A DNA stretch of 40,044 nt from an uncultured Oscillospiraceae bacterium (GTDB lineage Bacteria > Bacillota > Clostridia > Oscillospirales > Oscillospiraceae). Shown piece by piece: positions 1,482 through 23,612 of this stretch. Below the pieces are notes generated by a model that was not told where the DNA came from, did no database searches, and was given only the letters and a program-made list of their open reading frames with translations. Every line of letters starts with the position of its first letter. Position 1 is the first letter of the stretch. The translations under genes and the position numbers were made by a program. The DNA lies in the NCBI GenBank assembly GCA_947626785.1, contig CANQTO010000020.1, forward strand, positions 1 through 40,044. Reading direction: 5' to 3'.

Positions 1482-2603
<1,122 letters not shown>

Positions 2604-20963: not shown

Positions 20964-21318
20964 TTATTTTTGAGAATCGTTCAACTCGCGCTGGCAGAAG
21001 GCCAACACCTTGGGAATATCGTTACAGGCTGTTTCCCAAAGTATCCTCTCATCCGTTTCCGCATAGGAGTGAGCCAGCCAGTTTCGCATCCCGCGGATCA
21101 TGCCCCATGGAAGCTGATCCTTTGTCACATCCCGAAATTCATCTGAAAGGCCGTTAGACAGTTCTCCGATCTGGAGGATGCACATAGCTACGGCGTTGAA
21201 GTAAGCGCGGTCTGCTGTGAACGCGTCAAAATTCCGGCCAAAGCGTTCAATAAATTTCTCCACATCCTCGCAAATAGGTGCGGATGTGCAGCAATCGCTG
21301 CCAGTCACCACGAGTCAT
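20964..21318 (-). pseudogene. hepT: HepT-like toxin gene with an N-terminal frameshift
   Basis: The body (MCILQIGELSNGLSDEFRD, then IRGMRNWLAHSYAETD) is a HepT/DUF86 HEPN RNase, with the R-x4-H motif intact. The expected start is the ATG at 21318, which overlaps the mntA stop (ATGA) and encodes MTRGDWQRLLHIRTY. After that the frame breaks at 21271-21276 (TATTTG where TATTG is expected), and CEDVEKFIERFG continues one frame over. A GTG at 21311 could give an odd N-terminus in the working frame. Either the toxin is dead or it is rescued by that start or slippage. Known HepT toxins act with the MntA nucleotidyltransferase as antitoxin. Confidence 0.7.
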
Positions 21319-21632
21319 ATCAGTCGTATCCTTTCAGCCTGTACATTCTGGATGAACGATGGAGCTCGCTGCCGGGTGCTGGCCTGCTCCAGCATCTGTG
21401 TCGTCACAAGGTCCACTTCTTTGCCAACGCTGGCGCAGAGGTCTTCGTACAGCCCGCCCATTTCAAACATCCCACGGATTTTAGAGCCGGTGCGGTCGAT
21501 AAGAATGTCCACATCGCTCTGCTCAGTAGCCTCACAACGGGCATAGGAGCCAAACAGATAGACTTCCCGCAGGCCGTATTTCTTAGCCACGGGTTCTATC
21601 CTCCGTTTCAGTTCTTTCACAGAGTAGATCAT
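21315..21632 (-). CDS. mntA: MntA-like nucleotidyltransferase antitoxin
   Basis: The 105-residue protein is a minimal nucleotidyltransferase with the GSYARCEATEQSDVDILID motif (G-S-x10-D-x-D metal site) typical of MntA. In characterised pairs MntA inactivates HepT by adding AMP to it. The start is ATG at 21632 with GAGG six bases upstream. It precedes and overlaps hepT, the usual order. The motif is intact although the partner gene is frameshifted. Confidence 0.85.
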   Translation of the reverse strand: MIYSVKELKRRIEPVAKKYGLREVYLFGSYARCEATEQSDVDILIDRTGSKIRGMFEMGGLYEDLCASVGKEVDLVTTQMLEQASTRQRAPSFIQNVQAERIRLI

Positions 21633-21794
21633 GGTGCACCTCACAATGTTCAGTATAACACAAGTTTGATGAGCTTAAAAGATATTTTGCAGTATATCAG
21701 GCGGTCTTTTCTACGAAGGAAAGTTATAAAAGCTCCGTTTACTTTATTATATCTCATTCTCGCTTTTATGGCAAGGTGTTCCAGGACGTATTCC

Positions 21795-21876
21795 ACAGCG
21801 TCGAAAAAGCTCTGAAGACGATGTGCCCACATAAATGCGGCCCCATCCGTCGGTCAGAGCTTTTTCGCCTTTTCCC
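21795..21876. repeat. structured repeat, copy 1
   Basis: An 82-bp unit shared with 22228-22309, with only a few differences. Outer stem of 14 bp: CGAAAAAGCTCTGA (21802-21815) with TCAGAGCTTTTTCG (21854-21867). Inside, AGACGATG pairs with CATCCGTC (one bulge) and the tip is CCACA-TAAA-TGCGG. Confidence 0.85.
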
Positions 21877-21953
21877 TATGACCCCCCAGCGCTATTTTGA
21901 AACTTCGCATGGGGGGGCGAGTTTGAGAGGGAATGGGCTTCCCCTCTTACAAG

Positions 21954-22123
21954 AGTGAAATCGTGCCTTTGGCACGGTGAAATCAAGGGCTGACGCCCTT
22001 GGTGAAATCGGCGCTTTGCGCCGGTGAAATGAGATCCGTCCCTCACCCTGCGAAGCAGGATCTCACCGCGAAGCGATTTCACCCCGCGAAGCGGGATTTC
22101 ACCCGTCCGCAGGACGGATTTCG
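21954..22123. repeat. mirrored comb of hairpins joined by GTGAAAT / ATTTCAC
   Basis: Left half: GTGAAAT at 21955, 21977, 22002 and 22024, separated by hairpins CGTGCC/GGCACG, CAAGGGC/GCCCTTG and CGGCGC/GCGCCG. Centre: GAGATCC (22031) with GGATCTC enclosing CCTGC-GAA-GCAGG. Right half: CGC-GAA-GCG, ATTTCAC (22076), CCCGC-GAA-GCGGG, ATTTCAC (22096), CCGTCC-GCA-GGACGG, ATTTCG. Linkers of the left half are complementary to those of the right half, so the whole can fold as a long stem carrying side hairpins. Stem sequences differ; only the linker is conserved. Confidence 0.85.
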
Positions 22124-22124
22124 T

Positions 22125-22160
22125 TGCAAAAACCCAATGCTTTCGCATTGGGTTTTTGCA
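22125..22160. repeat. 16-bp perfect hairpin, terminator-like
   Basis: TGCAAAAACCCAATGC (22125-22140) and GCATTGGGTTTTTGCA (22145-22160) flank TTTC. The arm contains T5/A5, so it might terminate in either direction. It adjoins the hairpin comb. Confidence 0.8.
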
Positions 22161-22229
22161 GTGCCGGTGGTGGGACTCGACCTGCCCTGCGGGGCAGGCC
22201 GGGTCGCGGGGCAAACGTGCCACCGGCAC
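22161..22229. repeat. 69-bp inverted-repeat element
   Basis: GTGCCGGTGG (22161-22170) pairs with CCACCGGCAC (22220-22229). Inside are CCTGCCC/GGGCAGG with a CGCA-type loop and CGACC/GGTCG. On the minus strand TCGAGTCCCACCACCGGCAC looks like a tRNA 3' end, but no anticodon arm or CCA is present. Confidence 0.7.
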
Positions 22230-22309
22230 AGCGTCGAAAAAGCTCTGAAGACGATGTGCCCGCATAAATGCGGCCGCATCCGCCGGTCAGAGCTCTTTCG
22301 CCTTTTCCC
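22228..22309. repeat. structured repeat, copy 2
   Basis: The second copy of the 82-bp unit. Outer stem CGAAAAAGCTCTGA (22235-22248) with TCAGAGCTCTTTCG (22287-22300), one mismatch. Tip CCGCA-TAAA-TGCGG is perfectly paired here, whereas copy 1 has one mismatch. Confidence 0.85.
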
Positions 22310-22331
22310 ACGAAAGTCTCTGCTTTCGTGG
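22308..22331. repeat. 9-bp hairpin
   Basis: CCACGAAAG and CTTTCGTGG flank TCTCTG. It abuts repeat copy 2. Confidence 0.7.
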
Positions 22332-22412
22332 AATACCCAGAAACACCGCTCCCGTTCGAGTCCCAATCTGTTCATCACTACAAAGGGCGGCCCCACAAGG
22401 GGACTCTGGGGG

Positions 22413-22441
22413 CCCCATAAAAGCCTCTGGCTTTTATGGGG
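22413..22441. repeat. 13-bp perfect hairpin
   Basis: CCCCATAAAAGCC and GGCTTTTATGGGG flank a TCT loop. It has no terminator tail. Confidence 0.8.
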
Positions 22442-22448
22442 AAAAGGA

Positions 22449-22512
22449 AGACTAACCCTGACCGACGGATGGAGCCCCGCTTGCGGGGCCCCATCGTCTT
22501 CAGGGTTAGTCT
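22449..22512. repeat. structured repeat, copy 3 (opposite orientation, different stem)
   Basis: AGACTAACCCTGA (22449-22461) pairs with TCAGGGTTAGTCT (22500-22512). On the minus strand the inner core is TGAAGACGATG ... CATCCGTCGGTCA, the same as in copies 1 and 2, while the outer stem sequence is entirely different yet perfectly paired. The tip is GCCCCG-CTTG-CGGGGC on the plus strand. Confidence 0.8.
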
Positions 22513-22628
22513 GACGTGGTACGGGTGGCGTTATAGGATTTGCAAAAAAAGCCCGGAATTTCAAGGTTTTTTTGAAGTCAAGAAGCAGTATTTACTAAAT
22601 TTTATAATACCTGACCATGTATTTTAAG

Positions 22629-22657
22629 GGCGTTCCTTTGTTGGGACGCCTTTTTTT
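22629..22657 (+). terminator. intrinsic terminator upstream of parB
   Basis: GGCGTTCC / GGGACGCC (one G-T pair) with a six-base loop is followed by seven T. It would stop transcripts leaving the hairpin block before parB, or act as a leader attenuator for parB. Confidence 0.8.
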
Positions 22658-22691
22658 ATGCCCAAAAGCACTTGCAGAAAGGAGGAAATTG

Positions 22692-23612
22692 TTGGAAAAA
22701 GAAACAGCTTCAAAGAAGCAGAAATGCGGGCAGGCAAGAGCGTCCCTCAAGGGTCTGCCCCAGGTGGAGGCGGTGGTCCGCATACCGCTGGACCGGCTGC
22801 ACCCATTTCTCGACCACCCGTTCAAGGTCCGGGACGATGCCGCTATGCAAGAGACGATAGAGAGTGTCAAAACATACGGCGTCCTAACTCCGGCCATCGT
22901 TCGCCCCGTTGAGGACGGCTATGAGATCATCTCCGGACACCGGCGCTGCCGCGCTTGCGAGCTGGCCGGTCTGCCGGATATGCCCGCCATTGTGCGGGAT
23001 ATAGACGACGATACGGCCACGATCCTCATGGTGGACAGCAATCTCCAGAGGGAGATTATTCTGCCCAGCGAAAAAGCCAAGGCGTACAAGATGAAGCTGG
23101 AAGCCATCAAACGGCAAGGGGCCAGGAACGATTTAACTTCTGACCAAGTTGGACAGAAATTAAAATGGTCAGTTGAACGTGTGGCCGAGGAAGCCGGAGA
23201 GAGCAAAAGTCAGGTACAGCGGTATATTCGCCTGACCGAGTTGAAGCCGGAACTGCAAGAGATGGTGGACACCGGCAAGATGGCTATGACCCCTGCTGTG
23301 GAACTTTCCTACCTGAAGCCAAAGGAACAGGAGCTGTTGCTGGAAACCATAGACAGCGAACAGGCGACGCCCTCGCTCTCCCAGGCCCAGCGGATCAGGA
23401 AACTAAGTCAGCTGGGCGGACTGAATGAGGACACGATGCTCTCCATCATGTCGGAACAGAAAAAGCCCGATCTGAGCAGCAACATCGTCCTGTCCGGGGA
23501 AAAACTGAGCAAGTATTTCCCCCGGTCATATACCCCTGCACAAGTCGAAAATACCATCTTCAAACTGCTGGATTCATGGCTGCTGAAACGGCAGCGGAGT
23601 CAAAGCAGGTAG
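22692..23612 (+). CDS. ParB/Spo0J-family partition protein
   Basis: The 306-residue protein has the ParB N-terminal domain (IPLDRLHPFLDHPFKV, SVKTYGVLTPAIVRP, ISGHRRCRACELAG with the GxRR-type motif) and a helix-turn-helix at about residues 165-185. The sequence NLQREIILPSEKAKAYKMKL is the usual helix before it. It should bind a centromere-like site and CTP, aiding maintenance of the mobile element. I start at TTG 22692, six bases after GGAGG; the ATG at 22617 would read through the terminator hairpin. No ParA gene is nearby, so it is an orphan here. Confidence 0.88.
   Translation: MEKETASKKQKCGQARASLKGLPQVEAVVRIPLDRLHPFLDHPFKVRDDAAMQETIESVKTYGVLTPAIVRPVEDGYEIISGHRRCRACELAGLPDMPAIVRDIDDDTATILMVDSNLQREIILPSEKAKAYKMKLEAIKRQGARNDLTSDQVGQKLKWSVERVAEEAGESKSQVQRYIRLTELKPELQEMVDTGKMAMTPAVELSYLKPKEQELLLETIDSEQATPSLSQAQRIRKLSQLGGLNEDTMLSIMSEQKKPDLSSNIVLSGEKLSKYFPRSYTPAQVENTIFKLLDSWLLKRQRSQSR

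Follow-up and report, generated by a model that had tools for sequence, protein, structure and literature searches.

Two-hairpin repeats behind tRNA genes of Oscillospiraceae, a candidate mobile family that may act as folded single-stranded DNA

The window, by which we mean the whole stretch of 40,044 nucleotides (nt) analyzed here from an uncultured Oscillospiraceae bacterium, carries an array in which three copies of a structured element (w1, w2, and w3) lie close together. On one side of the array is a HepT-like and nucleotidyltransferase gene pair of the toxin-antitoxin type (20964-21311 and 21315-21644, both on the minus strand), and on the other side is a ParB gene (22617-23612, plus strand). 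The three copies had been pointed out in an earlier note made from the sequence alone, and both they and the fixed core described there are real: TGAAGACGATG is found at exactly three places, all of them element copies. With one mismatch allowed, this string gave 4 matches where 0.65 were expected; for the other half of the core by itself, with two mismatches allowed, the count was not above chance (3 matches, 1.85 expected). The earlier note had correctly seen the core hairpin (H1), but the unit extends further on both sides: H1 is preceded by a CGTC foot and followed by CCTTTTCCC and then by a second hairpin (H2). The features of the three copies are as follows.

21794-21876, plus strand: copy w1, with foot G-CGTC at 21798-21802; 93.3 bits with covariance model R1
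21802-21815 and 21854-21867, plus strand: the two arms of H1 of w1, with core TGA-A-GACG-ATG..CAT-C-CGTC-GG-TCA
21868-21876, plus strand: CCTTTTCCC behind H1 of w1
21882..21917, plus strand: weak, putative H2-like hairpin behind w1 (CCCCCC..GGGGGG), from the predicted fold; degenerate compared with w2 and w3
22227-22309, plus strand: copy w2 (element proper 22231..22309), with foot G-CGTC, H1, and CCTTTTCCC; 92.7 bits
22308..22331, plus strand: H2 of w2 (CCACGAAAG..CTTTCGTGG), from the predicted fold
22439-22521, minus strand: copy w3 (element proper 22439..22517), with foot A-CGTC at 22517-22513; 99.1 bits
22512-22449, minus strand: H1 of w3, with outer stem ACTAACCC/GGGTTAGT, then CCTTTTCCC
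22413..22441, minus strand: H2 of w3 (CCCCATAAAAGCC..GGCTTTTATGGGG), from the predicted fold
22517..22543, minus strand: degenerate tRNA 3'-end-like flank GCAAATCCTATAACGCCACCCGTACCA directly before w3, read by eye

All three copies fold far better than dinucleotide shuffles of themselves (z scores of -5.2, -4.1, and -7.8 for w1, w2, and w3, with none of 200 shuffles as good). Copies w1 and w2 are 95% identical over 83 nt and are therefore a duplication. A common outer stem had been ascribed to them, but the 3' outer arm of w2 reads GAGCTCTTT where that of w1 reads GAGCTTTTT. Nor is w2 a single base away from w1, as had been proposed, since it differs at more than one paired base (CGTC to CGCC, plus the change in the 3' outer arm); both 3'-arm changes give A-C on the plus strand and G-T on the minus strand. 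In w3, which has the opposite orientation, the outer stem and tip differ from those of w1 and w2 and the pairing is kept, just as had been stated. The interruptions of the core, previously taken to be of an AA/GG type, are one A against GG plus a bulged C. By eye, the flank of w3 is comparable to the tRNA-Leu end ..TTCAAATCCTGTTACCCGCACCA that precedes a copy at locus L064, and the flank at L109 is nearly the same.

Two other kinds of repeat are interspersed with these copies. The stretch between the window copies is an array of hairpins separated by GTGAAAT, with a match to Gut-1 RNA (RF01706) at 22055-22126 (minus strand, 69.5 bits) and a second at 21944-22013 (plus strand, 31.5 bits, under the cut-off); it has a 92% identical counterpart elsewhere in the window's genome (G000:C12), and similar stretches occur in several genomes of the family. 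Gut-1 is among the RNAs given in PMC2864571. The other repeat mimics tRNA T-arms (GGGAYTCGACC..hairpin..GTGCCGGTGG..TTCGARTCCC) and is found in the window at 22162-22376 and at loci L043, L066, L067, and L068. It stands behind tRNA-Ala, tRNA-Ser, and tRNA-Lys and twice in tandem behind a putative tmRNA that we read ourselves (ARAGORN called none in L066), and at L043, L066, and L068 the copy resembles the 3' end of its own upstream gene. Copy w2 seems to have been inserted in a unit of this repeat.

Model R1 was built from five copies, namely, the three in the window and two from a genome of another genus, both of which lie directly behind tRNA-Leu genes and were recovered by a pattern search and a DNA search of the region. 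A loose pattern search of 300 family genomes had matched 26, which is not above the reversed-pattern control, and only the window's genome (G000) and G163 were taken as real. With 11 candidates scored per genome, R1 matched 32 of 400 family genomes at an E value of 1e-3, representing 17 of 106 genera, so that the covariance-model search of relatives suggested in the earlier note returned far more than the window copies. A second model, R2, was built from 50 copies, and 150 candidates per genome were scored for copy number. The window's genome gave 44 matches at 43 places (one being matched on both strands), 3 in the window and 40 elsewhere, and seven relatives gave 31, 26, 24, 20, 6, 5, and 4 matches. 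At least 4 of the 31 are reverse strands of others, and the four copy-rich relatives hold about 20 to 27 places each. The genomes searched are mostly draft metagenome-assembled genomes. Among 391 genomes drawn from the class, none but the window's own matched at 1e-6.

The complete element is about 115 nt long and consists, in order, of a purine, CGTC, H1 with its conserved asymmetric core, CCTTTTCC, H2, and GGGnCCC. Several different H1 cores share a common outer frame, purine-CGTCAGAA ... TTCTTCCTTTTCC-H2. A scan for this frame (CGTCAGAA..TTCTTCCTTTTCC) in one genome per species, covering 84,980 species, gave 112 stretches; among the matches listed (80 of the 112), about 73 have titles naming Oscillospiraceae, Ruminococcaceae, Clostridiales, or Clostridia, many of them from rabbit, goat, deer, or rumen samples. 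R2 matched 71 of these loci. Of the 41 that it did not match, 31 were judged by eye to have the frame around a different H1 core, in most cases together with an H2, and the remaining 10 were dropped by eye as chance, 5 of them having C or T before CGTC and 1 (L244) being possibly real. CGTC is preceded by a purine in every one of the 101 loci left after this removal by eye (A in 62, G in 39). The L244 stretch (~1670-1744, minus strand), on a contig titled Patescibacteria, has the same frame, an H2-like hairpin, and tRNA-like sequence beside it; it represents a distant copy or else a misbinned contig. The commonest tip of H1 is CAAG on the top strand (46 of 130 H1s); a GNA triloop at the tip of H2 was considered and given up, as a census found triloops in 15 of 131.

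Tandem units in L209, L118, L064, and L190 are spaced 106 to 153 nt apart. In the arrays at L355, L209, L118, and L193, the unit nearest the tRNA, or the first one, is complete, and those downstream have a lost or damaged H1 5' arm, as if newer units had been added at the front. Subfamily B (L105, L106, and L161 to L180) is a longer composite of about 300 nt that often sits just past the end of a gene rather than behind tRNAs. It has a tail GAGGAGCAGCG..GCTTGCGACGACGAGGC, and many copies also have an upstream hairpin TCAAATGCG..CGCATTTGA. BLASTN of the region against plasmids and phages gave no match, and two pattern matches in viral contigs, neither with an R2 match at 1e-6, were taken as chance. 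No Rfam model reached its gathering score on the element in the window and 20 loci; at a loose threshold, the sole match to it was mir-5316 (22.4 and 18.8 bits, the cut-off being 70), again taken as chance. In the part of the literature covered, judged by title and the start of the abstract, the element is not described. These repeats apparently constitute a large and so far undescribed family of short, two-hairpin DNA elements.

The proposal that the stems change while their pairing is conserved was borne out by many further copies, from other genera too, whose stems differ. Across 48 distinct H1 sequences, 26 of 28 pairs show double-sided change, with 92.5% of cells paired and 313 double-change cells. 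The covariation score was 0.630, compared with 0.08 to 0.14 (maximum, 0.138) for slid partners and 0.200 for shuffles. The pairs were counted on an alignment (A4) that had itself been fitted to the same structure; relatedness is preserved in the slid control and disregarded by the shuffles. H2 varies as well: a stem of at least 6 bp is present in 103 of 120 distinct H2 regions versus 47 of 600 shuffles, with 38 different six-letter stem starts. One and the same tRNA site holds quite different H1 stems in different genomes.

The position of the element is far from random. Among 89 R2 matches from loci chosen regardless of tRNAs (a set that includes one reverse-strand match of a counted hairpin, in L198, and downstream units of arrays), 30 stand directly after the CCA of a tRNA or tmRNA gene on the same strand, at a distance of -1 to -4 nt from its 3' end. 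Twelve kinds of gene are represented upstream (Ser, 8; Leu, 7; Pro, 4; Arg and Gly, 2 each; Met, Lys, Cys, Thr, Gln, Ala, and tmRNA, 1 each). Random placement gave a mean of 0.08 abutting copies and a maximum of 2 in 2,000 trials. A single copy of the 89 adjoins a tRNA on the opposite strand, and 59 have no tRNA directly upstream. When copies with equal sequence and equal 60-nt flank were merged, 53 of the resulting 157 followed a tRNA-like end, as recognized by a simple text motif for the 3' end. According to a crude open reading frame (ORF) caller, the gene upstream of the other 104 is on the same strand in 66 cases, on the opposite strand in 30, and unknown in 8, and 36 of the 104 fall inside ORFs of at least 100 codons. 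The window's genome has 40 tRNAs above the cut-off, and an element directly follows only 2 of them (L100 and L101); among 20 further loci of that genome, mostly of subfamily B, none has a tRNA directly upstream.

Empty sites were found for two of these positions. Of 15 loci examined, 10 have both tRNA-Met and tRNA-Trp; the spacer between them is 7 nt in two (L344 and L350), and in the other eight it is 120 to 292 nt and holds the element directly behind the CCA, the spacers of L227 and L347 being identical. Similarly, tRNA-Phe and tRNA-Tyr stand 5 nt apart in L351 and have the element between them in the window's genome (L101), with no match in the two further loci examined for this pair. Such presence and absence at orthologous sites is expected of a mobile element, and it is from this comparison of sequences that movement may be inferred. 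At the left border, three of the eight filled tRNA-Met/tRNA-Trp loci have an extra CCR between CCA and CGTC. When one copy was compared with 35 genomes, dozens of matches had the same starting point, to within a base or two, at the purine of R-CGTC; on the right, many matches stop where H1 plus its tail is complete or where H2 is, and others start inside the element or run further. The target duplications that the earlier note had proposed looking for were not seen in the comparison of empty and filled tRNA-Met/tRNA-Trp loci at the right border, where there is also no duplicated tRNA end. At L107 and L108, sequence resembling a tRNA-Leu end lies downstream of the element.

In two genomes of the genus, a copy also splits a tyrosine-recombinase gene (L102, 2380-2510, and L116, 2150-2280). 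The insertion lies between ..KSAGLE and LHDLRHTF.., just before the HDLRHT box, and a few target bases seem to have been replaced at the right junction, as judged against a distant homologue in Vescimonas. A search for relatives of the interrupted recombinase in viral contigs found none.

The two strands of H1 do not fold equally well. Taking as bottom the strand opposite to the tRNA transcript, the minimum free energy calculated with RNA parameters favored the bottom strand in 132 of 154 H1s and the top strand in 16; with DNA parameters, the numbers were 123 and 15, and the gap in stability was larger with RNA than with DNA parameters. The bias recurs in each core class, although the classes are crude text patterns into which 3 of the 154 do not fall (class A, 70 versus 13, n = 83; class B, 40 versus 1, n = 44; class C, 20 versus 2, n = 24). 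It recurs in 53 representatives less than 80% alike (44 versus 6) and in the frame-only set, chosen without the covariance model (28 versus 0, n = 28). As a control, 46 tRNAs were folded in the same way: with RNA parameters the sense strand was better in 35 and the opposite strand in 5, and with DNA parameters there was no bias (13 top, 11 bottom), so that this control speaks to RNA only.

The mismatches tell the same story. On the tRNA-sense strand, H1s contain 161 A-C and 51 G-T mismatches, or 84 and 28 when distinct contexts are counted (P ~ 1e-7 if contexts are independent), and the pooled outer stems of the frame set contain 27 A-C versus 5 G-T contexts (P ~ 1e-4). The window agrees, the changes in w2 being A-C on the given strand and G-T on the other. 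A functional sense RNA would tolerate G-U and not A-C, and H1 shows the reverse. Because the model derives from the sense strand and counts G-U as paired, any selection bias would be expected to run the opposite way. In tRNA acceptor stems from the same loci, G-T outnumbers A-C by 16 to 1, a control limited to stems with at least six of seven standard pairs, which itself limits A-C; the energy control was unfiltered. The ratio of A-C to G-T in H1, 3:1, is weaker than this 16:1.

Candidates for an enzyme acting on the element were sought in the copy-bearing genomes. The Y1 transposase family (Y1_Tnp, PF01797) was not found in five of eight of them (G000, G216, G294, G327, and G095) and is present in G301 (with a stop), G163, and G358; 7 of 24 genomes searched have one. 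Its presence does not track copy number, and a Y1 transposase is not supported as the mover. Nor is the integron integrase (TIGR02249), with none over the cut-off in 20 genomes. Weaker matches to the tyrosine-recombinase family of the integrase occur in all 20, as they do in all 14 control genomes, and an ordinary tyrosine recombinase could therefore be the mover. The earlier note had also suggested looking for a shared neighbor gene; none emerged from the 122 nearest genes (crude ORF caller), the largest family accounting for at most 4.

The earlier note had offered three candidates: a new RNA motif, a recombination site used as a folded single strand, and a nonautonomous mobile element. The last two fit best, given the empty sites, the insertion at tRNA 3' ends, and the copy number. 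On balance, we lean toward regarding the window hairpins as copies of a nonautonomous mobile family of Oscillospiraceae that works as folded bottom-strand DNA and prefers the 3' ends of tRNAs. The element would move as, or be recognized as, a folded single bottom strand, and a putative recombinase or transposase supplied in trans would recognize H1 by its asymmetric internal loop and its bulge, features that give the hairpin a direction. This enzyme might then join the element behind tRNA 3' ends or look-alike sites, leaving the outer and tip stems free to change as long as pairing holds.

An RNA motif on the transcript of the flanking tRNA is unsupported because that strand is the worse folder, and the RNA candidate therefore shifts to the other strand. 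There, H1 and H2 would be helices of a structured RNA antisense to the tRNA, and the spread through genomes would be secondary or RNA guided. The tolerance of G-T on the bottom strand does resemble G-U in RNA, the energy gap is larger with RNA parameters, and the top-strand tip CAAG reads G(CTTG)C on the bottom strand, a loop that is extra stable in RNA and in DNA alike. However, its transcripts would extend into tRNA genes in antisense orientation, no Rfam model reached its gathering score, the mismatch ratio falls short of that in acceptor stems, and the arrays and the insertion into a gene suit a DNA element better; we consider such an RNA unlikely.

A sense-strand role as a 3' trailer, terminator, or processing signal of tRNA transcripts would account for the location directly behind the CCA of many kinds of tRNA in the same orientation, and for the excess of same-strand upstream genes among copies lacking a tRNA-like end. 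Yet the sense strand folds worse, the hairpin has no T run behind it, relatives have the same tRNAs only 7 or 5 nt apart, and 38 of the 40 tRNAs in the window's genome do without the element, all of which makes this role very improbable. The repeats might instead be passive palindromes spread by template switching, their arms kept complementary by hairpin-templated correction and not by selection. Local duplication of w1 and w2, tandem units with damaged 5' arms (L209, L193, L118, and L355), and the many combinations of outer and inner stem types seen by eye would all be in keeping with such a process. Such correction should nevertheless remove the A/GG loop and C bulge, yet both persist, and the CCA position, fixed left end, and strand bias would be left unexplained, so that we think passive spread improbable.

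If the reading as a mobile, folded bottom strand is true, gut Oscillospiraceae would harbor mobile repeats carried by structure more than by sequence, on the strand opposite the tRNA, and the family would target some of the most conserved sites in their genomes. DNA moving in the form of a folded single strand would then be known from one more system besides attC sites and REPINs, and the search for the family's enzyme would be defined as one for a protein binding an A/GG asymmetric loop with a C bulge. More generally, a strongly covarying sequence behind a tRNA gene is not necessarily a new RNA on the tRNA transcript, and a strand test separates the two possibilities.

Among known systems, several share single traits with the element. 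Gut-1 RNA is likewise hairpin-rich noncoding DNA of gut bacteria, but it differs in place and sequence, and no Rfam model, its own included, reached a gathering score on the element. An intrinsic terminator would have a T run after the hairpin, where CCTTTTCC or a similar sequence stands instead, and a MITE of a DDE transposon would have a target site duplication, which the tRNA-Met/tRNA-Trp loci do not show at the right border. Integrative islands with tyrosine recombinases that target tRNAs insert at their 3' ends; unlike these, the element is only ~115 nt long, contains no gene, and leaves no duplicated tRNA end at the tRNA-Met/tRNA-Trp right border. The ends of IS200/IS605 and palindrome-associated elements resemble it in having imperfect hairpins adjoining a preferred target motif, and IS200/IS605 insertion creates no target duplication. 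Here, however, the presence of Y1 transposase does not follow copy number, and H1 and H2 are not alike by eye.

The closest genomic pattern is that of REPINs, and the closest working model that of attC sites. REPs and REPINs, which are moved by RAYT, of the Y1 family, resemble the element in being short extragenic palindromes of high copy number without a gene of their own, with predicted single-stranded DNA hairpins, compensatory changes, and tandem clusters (PMC3116915). A REPIN, however, consists of two inverted REPs, whereas the element seems, by eye, to join two unlike hairpins (R2 matches H1s and array units and not H2), is often behind a tRNA CCA, and is strand biased. For attC sites, the choice of strand depends on extrahelical bases, and the folded bottom strand is reported to be stabilized by a nucleotide skew (PMC6393395). 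The element shares with them the precedence of structure over sequence, a better-folding bottom strand (defined here relative to the tRNA), unpaired bases giving direction, a variable terminal stem, and arrays of units behind a fixed site. It differs in that its site is the tRNA 3' end and not attI and in that array units of 106 to 153 nt leave no space for cassette genes. Membership in either group fails on the enzyme, Y1_Tnp being missing from five of eight copy-bearing genomes and no integron integrase passing its cut-off in the 20 examined. We tentatively suggest, as a possibility, a separate mobile system of cassette-less, attC-like bottom-strand units on tRNA and tmRNA 3' ends, in which each H1 core perhaps has its own recombinase.
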